Shown: piece after piece, positions 9,961-55,720 of the stretch
Numbering within the stretch: position 1 is the stretch's first letter
Layout of the letters: each line of letters begins with the position of its first letter
Assembly (NCBI GenBank): GCA_016868665.1
Contig: VGGK01000010.1
Span: forward strand, 1-64,000
DNA: 64,000 bases
Origin: Chlorobiota bacterium
GTDB lineage: Bacteria; Bacteroidota; Chlorobiia; Chlorobiales; Chlorobiaceae
Direction: 5' to 3'
Translations under genes and position numbers: made by a program
The notes under the pieces: generated by a model
Told to the model about the DNA's origin: nothing
The model's input: the letters and a program-made list of their open reading frames with translations, nothing else
Databases searched by the model: none

Positions 9961-12405
9961 TTACATCAGGTTCTGGGGATCGACGTCGATTGTGATAGAG
10001 AGGTCTGCCGACCTGTAGCGGGATATGGCTGCGTCAAGCTGCTGGCGGATGAATGCGGGGGAGAGTTTGCCGGAGAGTATTTTGAGGAGCAACTGGTAAC
10101 GGAACCTGTCTCGCAGTTTTGCTATGCCTGCAGGTGCGGGTCCGAGCAGGATGACGTTTTCAGGCGGCAGATGCGTGGCGAGTTCCGTTTTGAACGATAT
10201 TGCGGCTTCTTCGGCTTTTTTTTCTTCCGCCGCAGAAAACTCGAATTTCATCAGTCTGGCGACAGGAGGATATCCGAGAGCGGTTCTCAGGCCCATTTCG
10301 CGATCAAAAAATTTTTCATAGCTGCCTTCGAGCAGCGATCGGAACACTTCGTTTTCAAGGTTGTAAACCTGAAGATAGACTTCGCCGGGTATCGATGCAC
10401 GCCCTGCCCGCCCCGCTACCTGTGTCAGCAGCGAATACATGCGTTCGGCTGCCCGGAAATCCGGGATGTTCATCCCGATATCGGCCATCATAACGCCGAC
10501 GAGTGTCACGTCCGGGAAATCAAGTCCTTTTGCGACCATTTGCGTGCCAAGCAGTATTCTTGATTTTTTATCATGAAACTGTTTGAGAATTCTGCCATGG
10601 GCCCCTTTGGAAGTCGTGGTATCGATGTCCATGCGGAGAATGGTTTCGTCCGGAAAGAGGGATTTCAATTCTTCTTCTATCCGTTCGGTTCCGCTGCTTT
10701 TATAAAAGAGTTTTGTCGAACTGCACTCGGAGCACTGTTCGGTGAATTTTCGGGTAAGCCCGCAATAGTGGCAGCGAAGCTGCATGCCTGCCGCATGGTA
10801 GACCAGCGGGATGTTGCAGTGACGGCACATCGGGGTATGGCCGCAGTCAAGGCAGAATACGCTGCCGGCAAAGCCTCGTCGGTTCTGCAGCAGAATCACC
10901 TGCTGGTTTTTTTCTAATCTTTTGCTTATTTCGCGGTAAAGCAGGTCTGAAACAGATGGCGTGGCTTTTGGCGCTTCACGCATTGAAATGAGGGTTATGC
11001 CGGGCATGCTTGCCCCATCGATGCGTTCAGGCAGGTTTATGAGCCTGTACTTGCCGATTCTCGCATTCTGGTATGATTCGAAGGATGGTGTTGCCGAGCC
11101 GAGCACGCAGACGGCATTTTCAAGCATGGCACGCATGACTGCGGTATCTCTTGCATGATAGCGGGGATTGCGATCCTGTTTGTAGGCACCGTCATGTTCT
11201 TCGTCCACAATTATTGCTCCGACGTTTTCCAGCGGCGCGAATATGGTGGAGCGTGGGCCGAGGGCGATTTTTGAGCTTCCTGCTTTGAGGCTGTGCCATG
11301 CGTCGTATTTTTCCTGGTCACTCATGGCGCTGTGCAGAATAGTTATATTATCGTGAAAATGCTGCATGAACCGTCCCGCGGTCTGTGGAGTGAGCGAAAT
11401 TTCCGGAACCAGCACTATAGCGGTTTTGCCGCAGTCGAGAACCTGTTTGAGCAGTTCGATATAAATAAGGGTTTTACCGCTTCCTGTCACTCCATGAAGC
11501 AGAAAGGGACGAAATTCTCCGGTATCGACGGCCTCATGCAGAATGGCGAGCGCTTCTTTCTGTGCACAGGTAGGGTTTTCAGGGTGTTTTTTTGTTTCAG
11601 AATAGGTGTTTTTGAAATTGCTCCGGATATCTGCGATTATTTTTTCTGTGATTCCTTTTCTTGTCAGTTCATTGAAGATCGATGGTTGAAATCCGAGGAT
11701 ATCGGGAAATCCGGGTTCTCCTTCCAGTTCGAGAAGAGCCGTGAACGCTTCAAGCTGTTTCGGGGCATGACGGAGCAGTTCTTCGGGGTTCCCCTTGAAG
11801 CTTCTGTTTATACGATAAGCGTTTTTCTTTTTCGGACGTGTTGTGGAGAATTTTTTCTGCAACGTGATGTAGCCGCCTTTTTCGAGTTCCGTGAGCGTCC
11901 GATAGAGCTGCTTTCGGCCGAGTCGCTTCTGAATCTGCCGCACGGTGAGTTTTTTTGCTGTGGCAAGTAATTGCAGGATTTCACGTCTGAGGGGAGTGCT
12001 GTGGGTTTTTCGTTCAGCGGGTTTCAGAAGAAAATCGTTGAGCTCTGCAATATCGTGCACGGTTGTTCTTACGGATGCAGGAAGGGCAGCGAGTATCGTA
12101 TCGAGAGGCGAAGAGATATAGTAGTCGGCCATCCAGAGGGCGAGCCTGAGAATGTTGTCCGAAAGAACCGGAGAACCACCATACATAAGGTCAGAAATGA
12201 CCGGCAGCGCAGGATTTCCGGTATCGATACCGTTTTCGTTGGAGGAGAGCTGCAGCACGTAACCGGGGTAGAGGGCATCCTTTCTGCGTGGAAGGGTAAC
12301 CAGTACCATGCTTCCGGGGCAGATGTCACATTCGAAGAGTTCCGGAACCCGAACTGGCAGCGGTTCGCCTCTGAAGAGTCTGTCGATTACAAGCAGTGCA
12401 TGCAT
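9961..12405 (-). CDS. priA: Primosomal protein N' (replication restart helicase PriA)
   Basis: The 814-residue protein has the complete PriA layout: N-terminal 3'-DNA-end-binding domain, winged helix, helicase core with Walker A GVTGSGKT and DEEH box (VDEEHDGAYKQ), the zinc-binding insert with paired cysteines (CLDCGHTPMCRHC ... CHYC ... CSEC), and the C-terminal domain. PriA reloads the replisome at stalled or D-loop forks. It is the last gene of the - strand run rlmN, hypothetical, adk, priA, with a strong hairpin between adk and priA. Confidence 0.97.
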   Translation of the reverse strand: MHALLVIDRLFRGEPLPVRVPELFECDICPGSMVLVTLPRRKDALYPGYVLQLSSNENGIDTGNPALPVISDLMYGGSPVLSDNILRLALWMADYYISSPLDTILAALPASVRTTVHDIAELNDFLLKPAERKTHSTPLRREILQLLATAKKLTVRQIQKRLGRKQLYRTLTELEKGGYITLQKKFSTTRPKKKNAYRINRSFKGNPEELLRHAPKQLEAFTALLELEGEPGFPDILGFQPSIFNELTRKGITEKIIADIRSNFKNTYSETKKHPENPTCAQKEALAILHEAVDTGEFRPFLLHGVTGSGKTLIYIELLKQVLDCGKTAIVLVPEISLTPQTAGRFMQHFHDNITILHSAMSDQEKYDAWHSLKAGSSKIALGPRSTIFAPLENVGAIIVDEEHDGAYKQDRNPRYHARDTAVMRAMLENAVCVLGSATPSFESYQNARIGKYRLINLPERIDGASMPGITLISMREAPKATPSVSDLLYREISKRLEKNQQVILLQNRRGFAGSVFCLDCGHTPMCRHCNIPLVYHAAGMQLRCHYCGLTRKFTEQCSECSSTKLFYKSSGTERIEEELKSLFPDETILRMDIDTTTSKGAHGRILKQFHDKKSRILLGTQMVAKGLDFPDVTLVGVMMADIGMNIPDFRAAERMYSLLTQVAGRAGRASIPGEVYLQVYNLENEVFRSLLEGSYEKFFDREMGLRTALGYPPVARLMKFEFSAAEEKKAEEAAISFKTELATHLPPENVILLGPAPAGIAKLRDRFRYQLLLKILSGKLSPAFIRQQLDAAISRYRSADLSITIDVDPQNLM

Positions 12406-45277: not shown

Positions 45278-47395
45278 ATGTTTCTTTCAGGATATATAAG
45301 GAAGTGCTTGGATGAGGGCACCCGGATATCGCGGTTCAACGTAACCTGGGGCGTGCTGCTTGCCGCGCCGGGACACCTTTTTTTTTATTTTCTTTTGAAA
45401 TACGGCTTTCTCATGCCGTATGAGAGTTTTGCTTTACGTTTTGCCGGATCATTACTCGCTCTCTTTGCCCTGCTGCTTGTGAGGCTTGATTCCCCTACGG
45501 CAAAGAGGATTTTTCCGTATTATTGGCATTTTACCCTGATTTTTGTTTTACCTTTTATTTTTACGTTTTACCTCCTGAAGAACGATTTTCATGAGCTCTG
45601 GCTATACTGGGAAATTTTCATGGTATTCGTTCTGATTGCCTTTGTGCCGAACTGGCTGATGCTGCTCTTCGACCTTGTTATTGGCGTATTGGCGGCTGTA
45701 GCGGTTTTTATGCTGACATCTCCAGGAGCTTCGCTGAATCCGGACTTCGATATTGCAGCCTACGCAACAGTGCTTTCGTTCTGCCTTGTGGCAGGTTATC
45801 TTTTCAGTTACAGCAACAGAAAGGGGCAGGTTGCGCTCGAAAAAAACGCGGCTCTTCAGGCGCTTGCCGGCAGTATTGCGCATGAAATGCGTAATCCTCT
45901 CAGCCAGGTGCGACTGAATCTCGATATTATTGAACATCAGCTTCCCTCCTGCGGGCGAGAGGATAATGGAAAGTCCGCAGATCTGCAGGAAAATATCATA
46001 AAGGTGCTCGACAGCCTATATCAGCACGTGGCATGGTGCCAGATTGCAGTCAGGCGAGGATCGCAGATCATTACCATGATTCTCGACGAAGTCAGCGAAA
46101 AACCCATCAGTAAAAACAGTTTTATCCATGCGAGTGCAGGGCTGACAACCCGTAAGGCGATTGAGGAGTATGGTTTCGAATCTTCCTCTGATCGAAAGAA
46201 GATAATGTTTGACAGCAGTCGGGATTTCATGTTCCGTGTCAACGAAACCATGTATATGTTTGTGCTATTCAATCTTCTGAAGAATGCGCTTTATGTTCTG
46301 GAGTCGCGTCCGGAAGCGAAAATCCACATAACGATTGAACCGGGAGAGACCTTGAACAGGGTGAAAGTCAGGGATACTGGTCCGGGGATTCCGGAAGTGC
46401 ATCTGAAGCGATTATTCGATCCCTACTATACATCTGGCAAAAAGGGGGGGACAGGGTTGGGGCTTTCATACTGCAAACGGGTAATGCAGGCTTTCAGCGG
46501 CGATATTACCTGTAATTCCCTGGAAGGCGCCTATACAGAGTTCGTGCTCGAATTTCCAGTGGTTTCCCGGGATCAGCTTCAGGCAAGCCTCGAAGGTCTG
46601 ATCAGTGAAAATCGCGAACTTTTAGGAGCCAAGCGTATTCTTGTAGTTGACGACAGGGAGCAGGACAGGAAAGATGTGCGCCGGGTGCTTGGAGAAGTTG
46701 TTGCTTTTCTGGACGAGGCTGCCGACGGCAGGGAGGCAATCGCGAAGCTGCGGAACGCCTCCTGCGATCTTGTGATAATGAATCTTTCAATGCCTGTGCT
46801 CGACGGATATGAGGCTACGGAGCTGATCAGGCAGGGAGAGGCCGGCGAATCAGCATCCACCGTTCCCGTTCTGGGCTATACCGAGCAGCCTTATGCTGTC
46901 GTTCATGCAAGGACTATCAAGGCAGGAATGCAGGGATTGCTTGCCAAACCATGTTCGGATGAGGAGCTGATTATCGGTCTTGCGGAAGTTTTCCGGGAAC
47001 TCAAAGGCATCAAGCTTCAGCGTCTGCAGGGTACGAGAGTACTGATTGTGGATGATTCGTCGGTCAACAGGATCGGGCTTGCCATGATGCTCGAAAAGTA
47101 CGGAATGCAGACAGAGGCGGCAAGAAACGGAAAGGATGCGCTCGAAAAGATTGAATCAGTCAGGTTTGACCTTGTGCTCATGGATATCGGGATGCCTATT
47201 GTCGATGGTATCGAGGCTACAAGGCGGATACGCAAATCTCCAAAAGAAGATACTGCCGTGCTTCCGGTGATCGGTATCAGCGGCGAATCGGATGAGCAAC
47301 TCGTTCGCGAAGCTCTATCTTCAGGGATGAATGATTATGTCGTGAAGCCGGTCGATATCCGCGTACTTGCCGAAAAGATAAGCAATCTGCTCTGA
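45278..47395 (+). CDS. CqsS-like autoinducer-receptor hybrid histidine kinase 1
   Basis: The 705-residue protein has six membrane helices (about 20-175) that resemble the CqsS/LqsS/PhcS sensor domain: MPYESFALRFAGSL and LLKNDFHELWL match the Vibrio CqsS segments around FPQSYE and MMLMNDW. HisKA follows with His202 in GSIAHEMRNPL, HATPase with FNLLKNAL, DTGPGI and GTGLGLSYCKR, then two receiver domains. Receiver 1 has Asn502 in place of the phospho-Asp (LVIMNLSMP), so it should not be phosphorylated; receiver 2 keeps Asp636 (LMDIGMP). It is followed after 56 bp by a secreted protein gene. Inner membrane. Confidence 0.88.
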   Translation: MFLSGYIRKCLDEGTRISRFNVTWGVLLAAPGHLFFYFLLKYGFLMPYESFALRFAGSLLALFALLLVRLDSPTAKRIFPYYWHFTLIFVLPFIFTFYLLKNDFHELWLYWEIFMVFVLIAFVPNWLMLLFDLVIGVLAAVAVFMLTSPGASLNPDFDIAAYATVLSFCLVAGYLFSYSNRKGQVALEKNAALQALAGSIAHEMRNPLSQVRLNLDIIEHQLPSCGREDNGKSADLQENIIKVLDSLYQHVAWCQIAVRRGSQIITMILDEVSEKPISKNSFIHASAGLTTRKAIEEYGFESSSDRKKIMFDSSRDFMFRVNETMYMFVLFNLLKNALYVLESRPEAKIHITIEPGETLNRVKVRDTGPGIPEVHLKRLFDPYYTSGKKGGTGLGLSYCKRVMQAFSGDITCNSLEGAYTEFVLEFPVVSRDQLQASLEGLISENRELLGAKRILVVDDREQDRKDVRRVLGEVVAFLDEAADGREAIAKLRNASCDLVIMNLSMPVLDGYEATELIRQGEAGESASTVPVLGYTEQPYAVVHARTIKAGMQGLLAKPCSDEELIIGLAEVFRELKGIKLQRLQGTRVLIVDDSSVNRIGLAMMLEKYGMQTEAARNGKDALEKIESVRFDLVLMDIGMPIVDGIEATRRIRKSPKEDTAVLPVIGISGESDEQLVREALSSGMNDYVVKPVDIRVLAEKISNLL

Positions 47396-47451
47396 TTATC
47401 GTGGGGGGCAGCTTTTACTCCTTAAATGGACAGCTGTCAACAATAACAATC

Positions 47452-47931
47452 ATGCAACAGGCGATGAAACAAGTTCGAAGCTTTGTTCTGCCGGCAGTTT
47501 TCATGCTGATTACAGGTATCGCTCATGCAGATAACTTCTTTTGCCCGGATGCTTCCGGAAAAACCCGGAGCGTGGAAGTATTCACTCCGGCTCCGGGCAG
47601 CGTTGAACGCAAGGCTATACTCGACGTTATGCGTATGAAGGTCATGGAGCTTCATGAACTCGATGTTGTTTTTGTTGTGAGGTCGATGAATGTCTGCAAG
47701 GGGTGGGCCTGGGTGCATACGCAGCCCCGGTCCAGGGACGGAAACTCTCGGTATGAGGACTTTTATGCTCTCCTGCAAAGAGTCAAGGGGACGTGGACTA
47801 TCGTTGAAATACCCTGTACCGAACCGGAAGATCCTGAATGTTTGGACAGTCCCGGTTATTTCCGGAAACTTGCGTTGCGTTTTCCGGATCTGCCGCAGGT
47901 AATTCTGCCTTCAAAAGATTATAAGCCATGA
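47452..47931 (+). CDS. Small secreted protein of unknown function
   Basis: The ATG at 47452 places a signal peptide (KQVRSFVLPAVFMLITGIAHA, cut before DNFFCPD) at the N-terminus of a 159-residue precursor. The mature part has RKAILDVMRMKVMELHELDVVFVVRSMNVCKGWAWVHTQP, a pattern seen in small periplasmic proteins of unknown role, and four Cys that may pair (CPD, NVCKG, IPCTE, PECLD). It lies between the first CqsS-like kinase and the PAS kinase, and could be a periplasmic partner of either. An in-frame start at 47401 would disrupt the signal peptide. Confidence 0.75.
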   Translation: MQQAMKQVRSFVLPAVFMLITGIAHADNFFCPDASGKTRSVEVFTPAPGSVERKAILDVMRMKVMELHELDVVFVVRSMNVCKGWAWVHTQPRSRDGNSRYEDFYALLQRVKGTWTIVEIPCTEPEDPECLDSPGYFRKLALRFPDLPQVILPSKDYKP

Positions 47932-47964
47932 ATAAACTGACATTGCCGTCCGGGATCTGTCGAC

Positions 47965-50900
47965 ATGTTTTCGTCAAGCGGCGCTATGCTTTCAGACAGG
48001 TCGGCAGCTGAGCATTTCCGGTTACCAGGCGGGGATCAGTCACTTTCATGCCGGAGCTCAGAAATTCGCCTGTCAACATCGATCGATATGAAGAATCTAT
48101 CCTTCGTCCGTCAGAATCCTGAATTATCCGGTTCGACGGCTTCCGATACAATCAATTCTGACTCGCAAGATCATTCCGTTTCGGCACAGATGAATATCTA
48201 CAAGACGATTTTTGAGCATATCAGGGATGGTGTGTTTATCCATACTATCTGCGAAAGCGGCAGAATCGGACGATTTGAGCTGGTTAACCCGGCGGCATGC
48301 CGGATGACCGGGTATACCGAGGAGGAGTTGCTCGATATGGGTCCGGAGGATCTTCATCTTCAGGAGGATATTCAGGTCATCAGGGCGTATTGCCTGGATG
48401 GGCTCAAAAAAAACAGGACATGCATGTTCGATGCGATCCTGCTGCATAAAGACGGTTCACGGATTGACACGGAGATCAGTGTTACGACAGTTGCCAACGC
48501 TGAAAGCGAGTGCGTTATTACCACGGTACACGACGTTACCCTTCGCAACAGGGCGTATCGCGATCTTGCCGAAAGCAAGAGCAGATTACAGCTTATCATG
48601 GATGCCGCTCATGCGGGTATCTGGGAGTGGAATACAAAGAATAACAGCAATATCTGGACGGATGAACTGTATCGTCTCTATGGACTCGATAAGGATGGCA
48701 CTGAGGCTTCTTACGAAGCCTGGCTGAAATCCATCCTGCCCGAAGAAAGGGAGCAAACCGAAAGAGTCGTGATCGAAGCGGCAAGGAAAGCTGAAGAATT
48801 TACTGTCGAGTGGCGGGTCAGGCAGGCTGAGGGCACTGAACGATGGCTTATGTCGAAAGGCACTCCTTTCAAAGACGAAGAAGGCGAGGCAAGCCGATAT
48901 GTGGGAATCGTGATTGACATTACAACGCTCAAGCTCGCACAGAAGGCCGAAATGAAAGAGCAGTCCTTGCGCAAAGCCGTTATTGAGAGTATTCCCGGAA
49001 CGTTTTACATGATCGATGTCAATGGACGATACTCCGCATGGAATGCGTATCAGCGAGATGTAATTATCGGCAAACCGGAATACGAGATGCATGAAGCCGA
49101 AGCGATTCATAGCATTCATCCGGAAGATCGAGTGCTGATTCAGAAAAAAATCACCAATGTACTTGAAGAAGGAACTGTCGAAATTGCGGTCGGGAGGGTG
49201 CTGCTTTGCGGAGGACCTGCATTCCGCTGGTTTCTGATGACCGGTCGGCGTATTTTTTTTGACGGTCAGCCTTATCTGATAGGTATCGGCATAGATATTA
49301 CCGATCGTAAACGGATCGAGGACATGCAGAGCTTTCTTGCCCGTATTACTTCGCTGCCTGCGTCCGAGTCTTTTTTCAGCGCTCTGGCTCAATACCTCGC
49401 GGATTGCCTCGGTATGGATGTTGTGCATATCGGGCGATTCAAACGCGACGGCTCAGCCATGACGACGCTTGGTATATGGAGTATCGGATATGATACGGAA
49501 GAAATATCTGATGCGGCGTGGAACGGCCTTCCTGCTGCGGATCTGCATGAAACAGGAATATGCATCCATCTCTCAGGCGTTCGCGATCTGTTTCCTCAGG
49601 ATCGGCTTTTGCAGGATCTTCGGGCAGAAAGCTATATGGCCACAACGCTTTTTGACCATAACGGCCAACCGATTGGCATCATCAGGGTTGTCGGAAGCGG
49701 TTCGCTTGAAAACGGTAATATAGCCGAAACGATCATAAAACTCGTAGCCATGCGCCTGTCGGGGGAAATTGTGCGACTTGAGGCAGAACATGCTCTGCAG
49801 AAAAGCGAAAAAAAATATCGGGAGCTGTATGAAACCGTACCGATTGGCTTGTATCAGAGCGATCTGGGAGGGCATATCATTGCGGCTAACGAATCCTGTT
49901 TTCAGTTAGCCCATGCCGCCAAAGAGGATCGCGACTGGTGGTTAACGCAGGATACGCGTGCAAGTTATGTTGATCCCGAGGATGCACGGCGGCTCAGGGA
50001 ATTGCTTTTGAGAGACGGATACGTCAGCGGTTTCGAGTCGAGATTCAAGCGCTGTGACGGCACCATAGCCTGGCTGAGCAATACGGCAACACTTGTATAT
50101 AACGAAAAAGGCGAGGCGGATTTCATCAGCGGATCGTTTATCGATATTACAGAGCGAAAATTGGCTGAGGAGGCAAAAGAAAAGCTTGAACTGCAGCTTC
50201 AGCAATCGCAGAAAATGGAGCTTGTCGGTCGGCTTGCCGGAGGCATAGCTCATGATTTCAACAATATGCTTGGCGTTATTCTGGGCAATGCCGAGCTGGC
50301 TCTTGCATCAGAAAACCTTGATCCAGCCAATACAGAACATATCGAGGAGGTTGTCAATGCGGCCAACCGTTCTGCTAATCTGACCGGACAGCTGCTTGCT
50401 TTCGCACGAAAACAGACTGTTACTCCGAAAATCGTCGAGTTGAACAACCTTGTGGAAGGGATGCTGAATATGCTGGAAAGATTGATCGGAGAGGATATAA
50501 AACTTTGCTGGCAGCCTTGTCTCTCTCAACTGTTTGTGAATATCGATCCTTCGCAAATCGATCAGATTCTTGTAAACCTTTGCGTTAATGCCCGGGATGC
50601 TATAGTCGATGTGGGTACGGTTACCATTGAAACAGGCGCAACGGGCATTGACGAAACTGATGCCGGTGCATTTTCGCTGGTGACGCCCGGCGAATATGTT
50701 ATGCTTGCAGTAACCGATACCGGTTGCGGGATTGAGAAGCAGCATTTCGACCATATTTTCGAGCCTTTTTTTACGACCAAGGAGATCGGAAAAGGCACTG
50801 GACTCGGTCTTTCGACTGTTTACGGCATCGTGAAGCAGAATAACGGTTTTATCAATCTTGAAAGCCAACCCGGAAATGGGGCATCATTCAGGATTTATCT

Positions 50901-51333
50901 GCCCCGTATCGAAAAAACACTGCATCATCCAGCCGAAGAACAACCGGTTTCACCTGTTGTTCAGGGAAAAGAGACCATACTGCTTGTCGAAGACGAACCG
51001 GAAATACTGAAGCTGTGCAGGATGGTGCTCGAAATAATCGGCTACTCGGTACTTACGGCGAATACGCCGGACAAAGCCCTCCAGATAGCAGAAGAACATG
51101 GACGGGCAATTCACCTGCTGCTTACTGATGTGATTATGCCGGAAATGAACGGACGCGATCTCGCCTTCAGACTGCAATCGATTCAGCCGGATATGAAGGT
51201 CGTCTATATGTCGGGGTATACAGCCGATAATATCGCAAGCCATGGAGTGATCAATACCGATGTCCAGTTTATCCAGAAGCCTTTCAGTATCAATGCTCTG
51301 AAGCAGAAAATCCGTGATGTTCTCGAGCAATGA
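47965..51333 (+). CDS. Multi-PAS/GAF hybrid histidine kinase
   Basis: The 1122-residue protein (possible internal start at 48088) has no membrane helix. Domains in order: PAS 1 (about 75-200), PAS 2 (205-330), PAS 3 (335-450), GAF-like (455-620), PAS 4 (635-755), HisKA with His in GGIAHDFNNMLG (about 760), HATPase (NLCVNARDA, VTDTGCGI, GTGLGLSTVYG) and a C-terminal receiver with LLLTDVIMPEMNG (about 1053) and QKPFS. The DFNN-type H-box is of the class in which the receiver sits behind the kinase. It senses unknown cytosolic signals and may pass phosphate to or from the flanking CqsS-like kinases, which is inference. Confidence 0.9.
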   Translation: MFSSSGAMLSDRSAAEHFRLPGGDQSLSCRSSEIRLSTSIDMKNLSFVRQNPELSGSTASDTINSDSQDHSVSAQMNIYKTIFEHIRDGVFIHTICESGRIGRFELVNPAACRMTGYTEEELLDMGPEDLHLQEDIQVIRAYCLDGLKKNRTCMFDAILLHKDGSRIDTEISVTTVANAESECVITTVHDVTLRNRAYRDLAESKSRLQLIMDAAHAGIWEWNTKNNSNIWTDELYRLYGLDKDGTEASYEAWLKSILPEEREQTERVVIEAARKAEEFTVEWRVRQAEGTERWLMSKGTPFKDEEGEASRYVGIVIDITTLKLAQKAEMKEQSLRKAVIESIPGTFYMIDVNGRYSAWNAYQRDVIIGKPEYEMHEAEAIHSIHPEDRVLIQKKITNVLEEGTVEIAVGRVLLCGGPAFRWFLMTGRRIFFDGQPYLIGIGIDITDRKRIEDMQSFLARITSLPASESFFSALAQYLADCLGMDVVHIGRFKRDGSAMTTLGIWSIGYDTEEISDAAWNGLPAADLHETGICIHLSGVRDLFPQDRLLQDLRAESYMATTLFDHNGQPIGIIRVVGSGSLENGNIAETIIKLVAMRLSGEIVRLEAEHALQKSEKKYRELYETVPIGLYQSDLGGHIIAANESCFQLAHAAKEDRDWWLTQDTRASYVDPEDARRLRELLLRDGYVSGFESRFKRCDGTIAWLSNTATLVYNEKGEADFISGSFIDITERKLAEEAKEKLELQLQQSQKMELVGRLAGGIAHDFNNMLGVILGNAELALASENLDPANTEHIEEVVNAANRSANLTGQLLAFARKQTVTPKIVELNNLVEGMLNMLERLIGEDIKLCWQPCLSQLFVNIDPSQIDQILVNLCVNARDAIVDVGTVTIETGATGIDETDAGAFSLVTPGEYVMLAVTDTGCGIEKQHFDHIFEPFFTTKEIGKGTGLGLSTVYGIVKQNNGFINLESQPGNGASFRIYLPRIEKTLHHPAEEQPVSPVVQGKETILLVEDEPEILKLCRMVLEIIGYSVLTANTPDKALQIAEEHGRAIHLLLTDVIMPEMNGRDLAFRLQSIQPDMKVVYMSGYTADNIASHGVINTDVQFIQKPFSINALKQKIRDVLEQ

Positions 51334-51816
51334 TCTCGTCTTTTTTCAGTAGCAGTCTGCACACTCTGATTGTATCTGCGATTGAACGCAAAGTCTGCTT
51401 GGTGATCGGTTTACAGCGCGTATTGCCGGATCCGGCTGAAAGCAGAGTCGGGTTCTGAAAAAAAAGAGGATTATACACGGTTATAGCCTGGTTTCTGAAG
51501 TCATTTTTCATGCCGTGATTGCGAGCCGGTCTTGCGGGCTACGCGAAAATAACATCCCATTGATTGTTATCTCCTTTTTTAAAAAAGAGATATGTTTTCG
51601 GTTTTTGTTTCAGGATTGTTACATTAACTATATACAGGTATATGGATTTTATCTTCTCGTTATAATACCGGAATTCGAGGCTGTGCATCGGCCATATACT
51701 CGCCTGGCAGGTTTTCCGCGACTGTTGATGGCGCAATTTTTTTTGAATTTTTATTTCCTGACCTGCGGATTTTAGCGGAATCACAGACCCTACAGTTCCC
51801 AACAAGCAGTATAGCA
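51334..51816. other. Gene-free region before the thioesterase-methyltransferase gene
   Basis: A 483-bp stretch with no convincing gene. It contains the palindromes GCCGGATCCGGC (51425-51436) and CTTTTTTAAAAAAG (51574-51587), the latter a possible terminator on either strand. It should hold the promoter of the two-gene unit 51817-55720. Confidence 0.5.
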
Positions 51817-53226
51817 GTGACACAGAACCATATGCTTTCTAATTTCAATCATTCTTTCCTTTTGAATTCAATCGACGCATGGGAGGAGGATCGTCGGGAT
51901 CGTTTCGATCTCGAAGCTCTGACGAAGTCGTTCCACGAATCGGTACCGGCTCTTGGTTTCATCGACTGGAAGATTACGGATGTCGAGCGCGGTTATGCCG
52001 AAACGGAACTTCCGCTTATTCCTAATTCATCGAATCAGTACATTGCCCATCAGGGCCCTCTGATGCTGCTTGCCGCAGAATACACAGGAGGACTGGCTCT
52101 TACCACATTGTTTCATCGGGTGCCGATAATCGGTTTCTGGCCTTCTGTCGACGAGAACGCCGGTTATATGTGGGGAGCCAAGGCATCAATCAAGTGGCTC
52201 ACTCCAAGCTGCCATAATCTGACCTGCAGGGCGCGGATCGATAATGAGCGATGGGAAGGGCTTGCCAGACGATTTGCCAGCAGCAGCAAGATAGTTGTGA
52301 CTGTTCCCGTTCACATGTACAACGGCGAGAAACTTGTTGCTACGGCCGATTTTACCTACTGGACGCAGGATATCAGGGGGCTTAAACGAAATGCTTACGA
52401 TATTGACAGGATCGATCTGCTCTATGAGCACAAGACCAAAACAACGGCAAAACTGATTGTAGGATTGCGCGCGCTTGAACAGGAAAAGCCACGGGAAGAG
52501 AGGCGGTTTGACGATCCTTATGCCTTCATGCTGGCCGGAAAGCATGGCATTACCCTGGCCAGAAGGTTCAGCGTGGCTACTCCGCAGCTTCAGAATATGA
52601 TAGCTGCCCGTACGCGGCATATTGACGAGTGTGTACGGGCTTTTGCTTCGGGAAAAACGAAATTCAATGTGGTCAATATCGGTTCAGGTTACGACAGCCG
52701 GTTCTGGCGGCTTGATTTTCCTCATGCCGTCGTTTACGATCTCGACCTGCCGGTCATGCTGCATGAACGACAAAGCATTTTCAATTACGATAAAAACATA
52801 CCGGTACGCGCCGTTCCCATAGACCTTGAAAACCAGCCGATCGATCAGGCGCTGCGGGAGCGATCGGATTTCGACCCCGGGTTGCCGACGTTTTTTATCT
52901 GGGAGGGAGGCTCGATGTATTTCAGGGAAATGATTATTGACGGCATTCTCCGTTCGATAAAAAAGATCATGCAGGAGGATTCCTGCATCTGGCTTGATTA
53001 TGTGTCGCAGGATCTGATAGAAATCCGCACGGGTATACGCGAAGCTGAAGGATTCATTCACAATATACGGAAAATGGGCGAACCCTTCATTAACGGATAT
53101 AACGATATCGAAGATCTTGCCGACAGGTACGATTTTATCATAGAACAGGATGTCCGTTCCGGAGAGCTTCTTGATATCGAAGAGGATGTTTATAACCATT
53201 ACAGTTTCTGTGTTCTGAAAAGCTAA
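51817..53226 (+). CDS. Hot-dog thioesterase fused to LCMT-type carboxyl methyltransferase
   Basis: This 469-residue fusion starts with GTG at 51817 (ATG at 51832 possible). Residues about 35-185 form a hot-dog domain of the DUF4442/YiiD-C type: NQYIAHQGPLMLLAAEYTGGLALTTLF has the His78-x-Gly and acidic Glu88 expected of thioesterases, and SIKWLTPS and VVTVPVHMYNGEKLVATADF complete the fold. Residues about 228-469 are a leucine-carboxyl-methyltransferase-like (PPM1/LCMT, PF04072-type) domain: NIGSGYDSRFWRLDFP (SAM site), YDLDLP (311 region) and FIWEGGSMYFRE. The gene ends 1 bp before a CqsS-like receptor. Inferred: acyl-thioester hydrolysis plus methylation of the free carboxylate to a signal. 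Confidence 0.85.
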   Translation: MTQNHMLSNFNHSFLLNSIDAWEEDRRDRFDLEALTKSFHESVPALGFIDWKITDVERGYAETELPLIPNSSNQYIAHQGPLMLLAAEYTGGLALTTLFHRVPIIGFWPSVDENAGYMWGAKASIKWLTPSCHNLTCRARIDNERWEGLARRFASSSKIVVTVPVHMYNGEKLVATADFTYWTQDIRGLKRNAYDIDRIDLLYEHKTKTTAKLIVGLRALEQEKPREERRFDDPYAFMLAGKHGITLARRFSVATPQLQNMIAARTRHIDECVRAFASGKTKFNVVNIGSGYDSRFWRLDFPHAVVYDLDLPVMLHERQSIFNYDKNIPVRAVPIDLENQPIDQALRERSDFDPGLPTFFIWEGGSMYFREMIIDGILRSIKKIMQEDSCIWLDYVSQDLIEIRTGIREAEGFIHNIRKMGEPFINGYNDIEDLADRYDFIIEQDVRSGELLDIEEDVYNHYSFCVLKS

Positions 53227-53227
53227 T

Positions 53228-55720
53228 ATGTTCTTATCGATGACCCCCAGATACTCTTCCAGATCCTCTTTTCTGAAACGCCTGGAGGATTTTTTCCGGA
53301 AAGATTACGATCGTAATGAACTGACGATCAATTATATCAGGTACATAGGGCTATGGGGTCATCCGCTCTATTACCTGCTTTGTACGGTTGTTTTTCCTCA
53401 GCCTTACGAGTCTTTCGAGCTTCGTTTTGCAACGGCGGTTACCTTTGTGCCGATTCTGTTCCACAACCGTTATCCCGTCAGGTTCAGGCCGTTGATGATG
53501 ATATACTGGTATTTATGGCTGACCTTTACCTTTCCGGTTGTGTTTACCTACCTGATGCTGATGAATGATTTTTCCGGTCTGTGGCTGGTTGCCGAAACTG
53601 TCATGCTGTTCGTGTTCATCATCTTTATCACCAATTTCTTTCTTCTGGCATTTCTGTTGGTTTCCGGTATTGCCGTCGCTTATGCGGGATATGTTGTCAC
53701 TACCGGCACTCATCTGACGATCACGCAGCATATTATCGAATACTTCCTGTCGGTGCCGATTGCTATTCTTCTTGGTTTGCTGGTCAATTCCACCAATAAA
53801 AAAGGTGCGCTGGCAAACGAGCGGAATACGGTGCTGCAGTCTCTGGCAGGGAGCATCGCTCACGAAATGCGCAACCCACTCGGTCAGATTCGGCATTGCC
53901 TGTACAGTATCCAGAACCTTCTGCCCCAGGTAACGCCCGAAGAGTATAACAAACCGATCGGCAAAGAGAGGCTCGAAAGTCTTTACGAACGGGTGGTTCG
54001 TGGTCAGATGGCTGTAAAACGAGGCGCCCAGGTGATTGACATGGTTCTCAGCGAAGTTCGCGAGAAGCCTATAGGGCCGGAGAGTTTTACCTATCTGTCC
54101 GCTGCCAGGGTTACGCGCAACGCGCTCGATGAATTCGGCTATGAATCTGAACAGGACAGGAAGCGCGTTCATCTTGTCACGAAAGATCAGTTCGTTTTTC
54201 ATATCAACGAAACGCTTTTTGTTTTCGTGCTCTTCAACCTGCTGAAGAATGCCCTTTTCTATTTCAAAACCTGTCCCGACAGTCAGATCACAGTACGTCT
54301 TGAGACGGGTAAAACTCATAATTACATATATTTTCACGATTCGGGGCCGGGGATATCGAGCGAGGCTCTGCCGCATATTTTTGACAGCTTTTTCACCAAA
54401 GGCAAGACTGCAGGTACCGGTCTCGGGCTGGCTTACTGCAAGCGGATCATGACCGCTTTCGGCGGGGATATTGTCTGTAAATCGATAGAAGGCCAGTATA
54501 CCGAGTTCATGCTTTCTTTTCCGGTTATTTCCGAAAAGGAGATGAACATCTATACGGAGCGTGTCATATCCATGGGATTGGCCGATTTTAAGGGAAAATA
54601 TCTGCTGATCGTTGATGACGAAGCGCTTTATCGCATAGTCCTGAAAAAGTATCTTGCTCCTCTGGAGGTTGAGGTCGACGAGGCGGTCGATGGGCGGGAA
54701 GCATTGCATAAGCTCGCTGAAAGACGGTACGATCTTGTTATCATGGACCTGAACATGCCTTCCATGGGCGGTTATGAAGCGGTCGAAAGGCTGCGCCGCG
54801 GCGAAGCAGGTCAGGAAGCCTGTTCGGTACCTGTTGCGGCACACAGTTCAGAGTCCGTCATGACCGCACGAAGCAGATCGGAAAACGCGGGAATGCAGGC
54901 TTTTATCGCCAAGCCCTGCAGCCAGGCCGAACTTATCACTTCTCTGCGGTCCGTGATCAATGCCGTCCCTGAGGGAAAATATCCAGGTTCTCCGTTTTCC
55001 GGACGAAAAGTGCTGCTGGTGGACGATTCAGCTCTGAATCGCGACCTGCTCGCGATGTATCTCAGAGACAAGGGAATTGTCGTGACCGTTTCGGATAGCG
55101 GTGATCAGGCGCTGGAGATTCTCAGAAAGCAGGATTTCGAGTTGATGATAACCGATATTCATATGCCGGGAATGGATGGACTCGAACTGACCCGCAGGAT
55201 TCGATCGAGCCGGAACCACCGTTATGCCCGGATGCCTGTTATCGGGCTCAGCGGGGCGATTGAAGAGGAGGCTGCGGCGAGAAACGCGGGAATGAACGAC
55301 TTTCGCGTCAAAACGGACAGCCCCAGACTGCTTCTTGCCTCCATTGGCAGGCAACTGTCGGTTCCCGCAGAAAACCCTCTTCAGGAAAAAGCGGTGAAAG
55401 AGTATGCTCACTCAACAGCAGTTACTTCTGCATACGGTCTGTCGTTATCGGAGAGCGAAGATCTCTTGCGCATTTTTCATGAGGAGTTTAAGGATATGCC
55501 AGCAACTCTTCGCCGGGCTCTTGAGGAAGCTGATATCGAAAGTCTTAAACAACAGGCGCATAAACTTAAAGGGAGTGCCGCCATTCTTGGTATCGTATCG
55601 CTCAGCAAGGCAGCCGAAGAACTTGAAATGCATTGCCGTAACGGAAGAACCGAAGATCCTCGCTCCAAAGTAGAGCACATCGTCGAAGCTCTTGAGGCAT
55701 TGTTGGCGGAAAAGGTCTGA
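53228..55720 (+). CDS. CqsS-like autoinducer-receptor hybrid histidine kinase 2, with Hpt
   Basis: This 830-residue protein begins 1 bp after the thioesterase-methyltransferase gene. Six membrane helices (about 40-195) carry GHPLYYLLCTVVFPQPYESFELRFATAV and LMLMNDFSGLWLV, a very good match in layout and text to Vibrio CqsS. The kinase core has His212 (GSIAHEMRNPL), FNLLKNALF, DSGPGIS and GTGLGLAYCKR. Two receivers follow, both with Asp (507 in VIMDLNMP; 643 in MITDIHMPGMDG), then an Hpt domain with His778 (AHKLKGSA). The second receiver ends FRVKTDSP instead of the usual VxKP. The long form includes all phosphorelay modules. Inner membrane. Confidence 0.9.
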   Translation: MFLSMTPRYSSRSSFLKRLEDFFRKDYDRNELTINYIRYIGLWGHPLYYLLCTVVFPQPYESFELRFATAVTFVPILFHNRYPVRFRPLMMIYWYLWLTFTFPVVFTYLMLMNDFSGLWLVAETVMLFVFIIFITNFFLLAFLLVSGIAVAYAGYVVTTGTHLTITQHIIEYFLSVPIAILLGLLVNSTNKKGALANERNTVLQSLAGSIAHEMRNPLGQIRHCLYSIQNLLPQVTPEEYNKPIGKERLESLYERVVRGQMAVKRGAQVIDMVLSEVREKPIGPESFTYLSAARVTRNALDEFGYESEQDRKRVHLVTKDQFVFHINETLFVFVLFNLLKNALFYFKTCPDSQITVRLETGKTHNYIYFHDSGPGISSEALPHIFDSFFTKGKTAGTGLGLAYCKRIMTAFGGDIVCKSIEGQYTEFMLSFPVISEKEMNIYTERVISMGLADFKGKYLLIVDDEALYRIVLKKYLAPLEVEVDEAVDGREALHKLAERRYDLVIMDLNMPSMGGYEAVERLRRGEAGQEACSVPVAAHSSESVMTARSRSENAGMQAFIAKPCSQAELITSLRSVINAVPEGKYPGSPFSGRKVLLVDDSALNRDLLAMYLRDKGIVVTVSDSGDQALEILRKQDFELMITDIHMPGMDGLELTRRIRSSRNHRYARMPVIGLSGAIEEEAAARNAGMNDFRVKTDSPRLLLASIGRQLSVPAENPLQEKAVKEYAHSTAVTSAYGLSLSESEDLLRIFHEEFKDMPATLRRALEEADIESLKQQAHKLKGSAAILGIVSLSKAAEELEMHCRNGRTEDPRSKVEHIVEALEALLAEKV

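Follow-up and report, generated by a model that had tools for sequence, protein, structure and literature searches.

A putative quorum-sensing synthase-receptor pair of green sulfur bacteria: a hotdog-methyltransferase fusion beside a CqsS-type sensor kinase

CqsA is an established autoinducer synthase, and in the CqsA-CqsS and LqsA-LqsS systems of Vibrio and Legionella the synthase gene adjoins that of the receptor. What does a receptor of this type perceive when its gene is adjoined by a different kind of enzyme? The question is raised by a locus in the window, the 64,000-nucleotide stretch of Chlorobiaceae DNA analyzed here, which comes from a genome of 2.38 Mb. The original prediction described a five-gene signalling block with two CqsS-like kinases (K1 and K2) and a thioesterase-methyltransferase fusion (FUS), in which a PhcBS-like logic would be served by a new type of synthase. 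Five same-strand open reading frames (ORFs) are indeed found at positions 45278-55720 (Table 1). The FUS ORF starts at 51817 or 51832 and that of K2 at 53228 or 53240; orthologues favour 51832 and 53240. The most likely reading of the locus, argued below from sequence comparison, is that FUS and K2 form a quorum-sensing pair uniting a known receptor type with a new synthase type.

Table 1. Features of the FUS-K2 locus and its surroundings, as positions in the window
Feature	Coordinates	Strand	Remarks and basis
K1, second CqsS-type receptor	45278..47395	+	HisKA, HATPase, two receivers
Small protein, signal-peptide-like N-terminus	47401..47931	+	Outside conserved module
PAS hybrid kinase	47965..51333	+	Four PAS stretches; outside conserved module
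FUS, hotdog plus LCM-type SAM methyltransferase, candidate autoinducer synthase	51832..53226	+	Pfam, NCBIfam, Foldseek
Hotdog domain of FUS, residues ~40-182	51949..52377	+	AF2 model, Foldseek, residue counts
LCM-type methyltransferase domain of FUS	52447..53223	+	LCMT1 profile match, residue counts
K2, CqsS-type hybrid sensor kinase	53240..55720	+	Membrane sensor, HisKA, HATPase, two receivers, Hpt
K2 specificity motif around W119 (V. cholerae CqsS W104)	53573..53596	+	Ala at S107 position; alignment

FUS, K2 and their neighbours in related genomes

As a unit, the five-gene block did not survive comparison with relatives, in which only FUS and K2 stay together. At the other loci FUS lacks K1, the small protein and the PAS kinase as neighbours, and a five-gene operon was rejected. 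The small protein matched nothing in Pfam or NCBIfam. The hybrid kinase had been described as PAS/GAF; its PAS stretches were recovered, while a GAF domain was not found with the same two databases.

The linkage of the fusion to its receptor, proposed at the outset as a check on gene order in green sulfur bacteria, was observed in all testable relatives and in three lineages. Among the 98 genomes of the order searched, full or near-full FUS was found in 14 places in 13 genomes. At 13 of them, the window and 12 other Chlorobiaceae loci, the contig extends past FUS, and each time the next gene downstream is a K2 orthologue; the 14th place is a contig end. FUS without K2 was not found at any locus with enough contig, and the stop-to-start gap between the two genes is -4 to 14 bases. 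A scan of 84,980 species located FUS outside the Chlorobiaceae only in Ca. Thiosymbion oneisti, the Thiosymbion of Catanema (both nematode symbionts) and one alphaproteobacterial MAG, with a K2-like kinase directly downstream in each (L172, L173, L174). These Gammaproteobacteria and the MAG keep the linkage at 53-64% identity, with other flanking genes and with the two genes nearly touching. The gene for a FadL-type outer-membrane lipid transporter follows K2 in L173. At the MAG locus a FadL transporter gene lies downstream, and a second, K1-like receptor is encoded directly upstream of FUS; this receptor does not cluster with K1 in the tree. The Thiosymbion of Catanema has, beside its intact pair, further copies of both genes that are broken (L172:3234-4673, L177:6270-7409, L185).

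Distance matrices of FUS and K2 correlate with a Mantel r of 0.89 when all 13 pairs are used and of 0.75 within the Chlorobiaceae alone (p 0.0002). The FUS-linked receptors form one clade (SH-aLRT 100), which is recovered with SH-aLRT 89 when outside members and motif columns are removed. Linkage within the Chlorobiaceae is in part a matter of inheritance, and a functional pairing of FUS with K2 is well supported by these genome comparisons.

K2 is classed as a CqsS-type receptor on the strength of a homologous membrane sensor, bearing PYE(S/N), W104 and related motifs, followed by a histidine kinase. V. campbellii CqsS matches it at 31% over 94% of the query, and in the sensor-domain phylogeny, the second check proposed, the K2 sensor clusters with the CqsS family. 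In line with the first description, K1 and K2 have the CqsS-type membrane sensor in common, and alignment recovers its motifs PQPYES, LRF and MND-W. The Hpt domain also ascribed to the kinases is present in K2 and lacking in K1. For both kinases, the best NCBIfam match is the Vibrio quorum receptor LuxN, through the kinase part and far below cut-off.

K1 is assigned to a separate orphan receptor clade outside the conserved module. Its specificity signature, ELWLYW, is AfsA-type by the residue code described below, yet the AfsA gene is absent from the window's genome, which makes K1 an orphan and perhaps an eavesdropper. The K1 clade is represented in four genomes (G000, G027, G048, G049), all four of which contain FUS, a hint that K1 might be a partner of the fusion.

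CqsA-type PLP enzymes were not found beside K2, the neighbour being FUS at every testable locus. The statement that no CqsA/LqsA gene occurs here is true within the window; elsewhere in the same genome, on contig C7, CqsA (631 bits against a cut-off of 428) is encoded divergently from a third CqsS-type kinase (L042:7649-10192 and 10640-11887). CqsA/CqsS homologues had already been noted in Chlorobium and Prosthecochloris (PMC5289986).

Domain composition of FUS and its relation to PhcB

The C-terminal half of FUS is an LCM/TIGR00027 methyltransferase with SAM motifs and LCM fold intact. It scored 114.2 bits against TIGR00027 (NCBIfam cut-off 93.55) and 95.4 bits against LCM (Pfam cut-off 22.3), matched LCMT1 by profile (E=2e-6), and, as an AF2 model, returned ML2640, PPM1 and TYW4 in Foldseek. 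The SAM motifs (R260, NIGxGYDSRFWR, DLDLP and WEGGSMYF) are invariant in 16/16 sequences. While FUS has the fold and motifs of LCMT1/PPM1 and ML2640, it differs from them in its additional hotdog domain and its linkage to a receptor; searches for FUS or close relatives on plasmids returned matches to the methyltransferase domain alone, at 26-32%. Where the function of LCM-family relatives is known, they methylate carboxyl groups, and carboxylates other than that of an acyl chain can be LCM-type substrates.

The thioesterase half of the predicted fusion is less definite. Against YiiD_C and DUF4442 the N-terminus gave weak scores under the Pfam cut-offs (18.8 vs 25 and 20.5 vs 27 bits), and a sequence search of the domain against the PDB gave chance matches only. 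The hotdog assignment rests on the AF2 model (pLDDT 67.7, medium confidence), for which Foldseek returned the hotdog proteins PA5026 and MadB, whose fold FUS has without a significant sequence match and as part of a fusion. By target-normalised TM-score MadB (8ayv) was the best N-terminal fold match (0.81), and PA5026, a probable thioesterase, scored similarly, such that the fold match cannot tell thioesterase from decarboxylase. Residues N68, Q69, H73 and Q74 are invariant, with a carboxylate (E/D) at 83, in 16/16 FUS sequences; E/D83 and N68 are candidates for catalytic residues. MadB is a malonyl-ACP decarboxylase with a catalytic Asn loop (PMC8666670), and the invariant SNQYIAHQ loop of FUS may be its counterpart.

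The PhcBS-like logic of the original prediction was retained as a working analogy and abandoned as homology. Like PhcB-PhcS of Ralstonia, which uses a 3-hydroxy fatty acid methyl ester, FUS-K2 has a SAM methyltransferase gene directly upstream of a sensor kinase, and the proposed product class is the same. However, FUS combines an LCM-type enzyme with a hotdog domain and is not a homologue of PhcB: hhalign against the PhcB-type methyltransferase gave a probability of 11.8% over 31 columns, covering the SAM motif only, and the two belong to different Pfam families. Nor was a place for PhcS in the CqsS-type sensor family supported; of ten PhcS-like proteins the sensor profile found one, through a weak match lying mainly at the His box. 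The true PhcB relative beside CqsS-type receptors is, by homology, c25, a class I methyltransferase of other green sulfur bacteria that corresponds to the methyltransferase half of PhcB. It has one match per genome in 15/80 Burkholderiaceae genomes (E ~1e-27), each checked match being followed by a kinase, and the closest matches have R22 and H230 (L161 in one) at the positions published for PhcB/PhcS (numbering from PMC6989110 and PMC11960443). Since c25 adjoins CqsS-type receptors while PhcS falls outside the sensor profile, PhcB-type enzymes stand beside two different receptor families.

Exchange of enzymes linked to CqsS-type receptors

The sensor profile detected approximately 120 CqsS-type receptors in 46 of the 98 genomes of the order. 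By clustering of neighbours, 30 were found beside CqsA (two being Vibrio and Cupriavidus records), a representative of which exceeded the NCBIfam cut-off; 26 beside an AfsA hotdog protein (PF03756, 100.9 vs 24 bits) with a flavin amine-oxidase-like protein; 13 beside FUS; and seven beside c25. The remainder have no recognised enzyme or lie at contig ends. CqsA over cut-off is present in 30/98 genomes. Directly upstream of CqsS-type receptors, KASIII-like enzymes, 60% identical, are encoded in Paraburkholderia caribensis (L043:3900-7541) and two Thiosymbion genomes (L182, L184).

The AfsA protein and its flavin amine-oxidase-like companion are encoded directly upstream of receptors in L083, L085, L125, L132 and others, with a tandem duplication in L125; signals made in these Chlorobiaceae could be gamma-butyrolactone-like or otherwise new. 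In the alphaproteobacterial MAG, the gene immediately upstream of one CqsS-type receptor encodes an NAD-binding 'male sterility'/thioester-reductase-like enzyme, possibly a sixth synthase type (L188:2194-3378).

Head-group specificity of V. cholerae CqsS is determined by W104 and S107 (PMC3376566). Counted over receptors with a linked enzyme only, the S107-equivalent is Ser in 34/35 CqsA-linked receptors (Thr in one) and in 0/52 others, Trp in 26/26 AfsA-linked and 7/7 c25-linked receptors, and Ala or Cys in 16/16 FUS-linked and 3/3 KASIII-linked receptors; Ser was not found in any FUS-linked receptor. Pro at the 103-equivalent occurs in 7/7 c25-linked receptors and nowhere else among those labelled. 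The independent origins number two for CqsA with Ser, one for c25 with Pro, and one or two for FUS or KASIII with Ala/Cys. In an independent-pairs test all informative pairs agree, at one or two per test, and the sign test is not significant; the tracking of the linked enzyme by receptor residues is thus suggestive. FUS-K2 resembles CqsA-CqsS and LqsA-LqsS in receptor family, sensor motifs, hybrid kinase and adjoining synthase gene, whereas FUS is not a PLP enzyme and K2 has Ala/Cys in place of Ser. The prediction that an orphan receptor with Ser at 107 implies CqsA in the same genome held in G036, G043, G044, G045 and G076 and failed in G005, G007, G012 and G065. Because of these failures, a CqsA partner in the same genome is not a requirement for Ser-type orphans, which may listen to neighbours.

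One chromosomal site in a sister genus (g2) contains CqsA in 4 genomes, AfsA with the flavoenzyme in 11 and c25 in 3, each beside its receptor. The site is flanked by c4 and c7 on one side and by c17, c5, c18, c21 and c24 on the other; by sequence, c5 resembles LpxD, c18 ribose-phosphate pyrophosphokinase and c21 ribosomal protein L25. The three c25-linked receptors at this site (L147, L150, L154) are chimeras. Their sensors are 57-61% identical to the c25 clade of genus g1 compared with 42-43% to local receptors, while their kinases are 57-65% identical to local receptors compared with 40-43% to the c25 clade. Trees agree, placing them among local receptors when the kinase is included and in the c25 clade when the sensor is used alone. 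The four CqsA-linked receptors of the site have kept the local sensor, with Ser instead of Trp at the S107-equivalent. By these comparisons FUS-K2 is taken to belong to a set of synthase/receptor cassettes that share a receptor family and can be interchanged.

Proposed signal and rival explanations

A quorum-sensing pair with the full acyl-methyl-ester mechanism is the probable account of FUS-K2. The hotdog domain of FUS would probably bind acyl-ACP or acyl-CoA and free the acyl chain as an acid, decarboxylation being the alternative. The fused LCM-type domain would then probably methylate the carboxyl group with SAM to give an acyl methyl ester able to cross membranes, perhaps with a 3-hydroxy or 3-oxo group. 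With hydrolysis and carboxyl methylation combined in one polypeptide, the product class of PhcB would be reached by an unrelated enzyme. The ester would exit the cell and bind K2 at its membrane sensor. At head-group positions the pocket of this sensor is unlike those of alpha-hydroxyketone receptors; the change of S107 to Ala/Cys is seen in the alignment and would alter the ligand accepted. Binding would shift the kinase/phosphatase balance of K2, and a His-Asp-His(Hpt) phosphorelay would carry the signal to a response regulator.

The chemistry could depart from this scheme with FUS still making the signal: the hotdog domain might decarboxylate in the manner of MadB, or only deliver an acyl-ACP intermediate, and the methyltransferase might cap another group, to yield a ketone, ether or other lipid. 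MadB being the best N-terminal fold match by target-normalised TM-score, the possible correspondence of its catalytic Asn loop (PMC8666670) to SNQYIAHQ, and the Ala/Cys at S107 of KASIII-linked receptors, which may suggest related products, all speak for such a route. It is nevertheless rather unlikely, given that PA5026 scores similarly in a fold comparison that cannot part thioesterase from decarboxylase and that the LCM-family relatives of known function act on carboxyl groups. Less probable again is that FUS acts under K2 as an effector or modifying enzyme that inactivates, exports or tailors a lipid, with K2 responding to a compound of other origin, such as the product of the CqsA encoded in this genome. 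With that CqsA and a third receptor in the genome, and CqsA over cut-off in 30/98 genomes of the order, a ligand of foreign or shared origin would be available. On the other side, K2 belongs to a clade of its own without the Ser of 34/35 CqsA-linked receptors, and the PhcB-type enzyme and CqsA, an established autoinducer synthase, are neighbours of receptors just as FUS is and take each other's place at one site. Common descent, most cases being within one bacterial family, could make the neighbourhood coincidental or purely historical. That is very improbable, since the Gammaproteobacteria and the alphaproteobacterial MAG keep the nearly touching genes among other flanks and every FUS with enough contig around it was accompanied by K2.

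The reading of FUS-K2 as a synthase-receptor pair has a wider form, for which the case is evenly poised: CqsS-type receptors would be a general lipid-signal platform served by five or more unrelated families of synthase (CqsA, AfsA with a flavoenzyme, PhcB-type methyltransferase, hotdog-LCM fusion and KASIII-like), with swaps at a fixed site accompanied by splicing of a sensor onto the resident kinase or by substitutions at two specificity positions, and the FUS autoinducer class would be an undescribed one common to green sulfur bacteria and Thiosymbion. In the open-access literature no report was found of FUS, AfsA-linked, PhcB-type-linked or Thiosymbion CqsS signalling, of synthase swapping or of sensor chimeras in this family, which is weak evidence of novelty. 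Quorum sensing appears to gain new chemical languages by keeping one receptor chassis and exchanging the synthase, along with the sensor domain or a small number of residues in the pocket, and new autoinducers are predicted in an ecologically important phototroph family and an animal symbiont. The residue code would help in guessing the ligands of orphan CqsS-type receptors, and the natural chimeras could guide receptor building.

Clusters of three CqsS-type receptors without a recognised synthase occur in L157 and L159. On plasmids of Polaromonas JS666 (L047), Dyella (L044) and Rhodanobacter (L045), CqsS-like kinases adjoin BREX or DEAD/DEAH helicase and WGR genes, possibly reflecting quorum-controlled phage defence.
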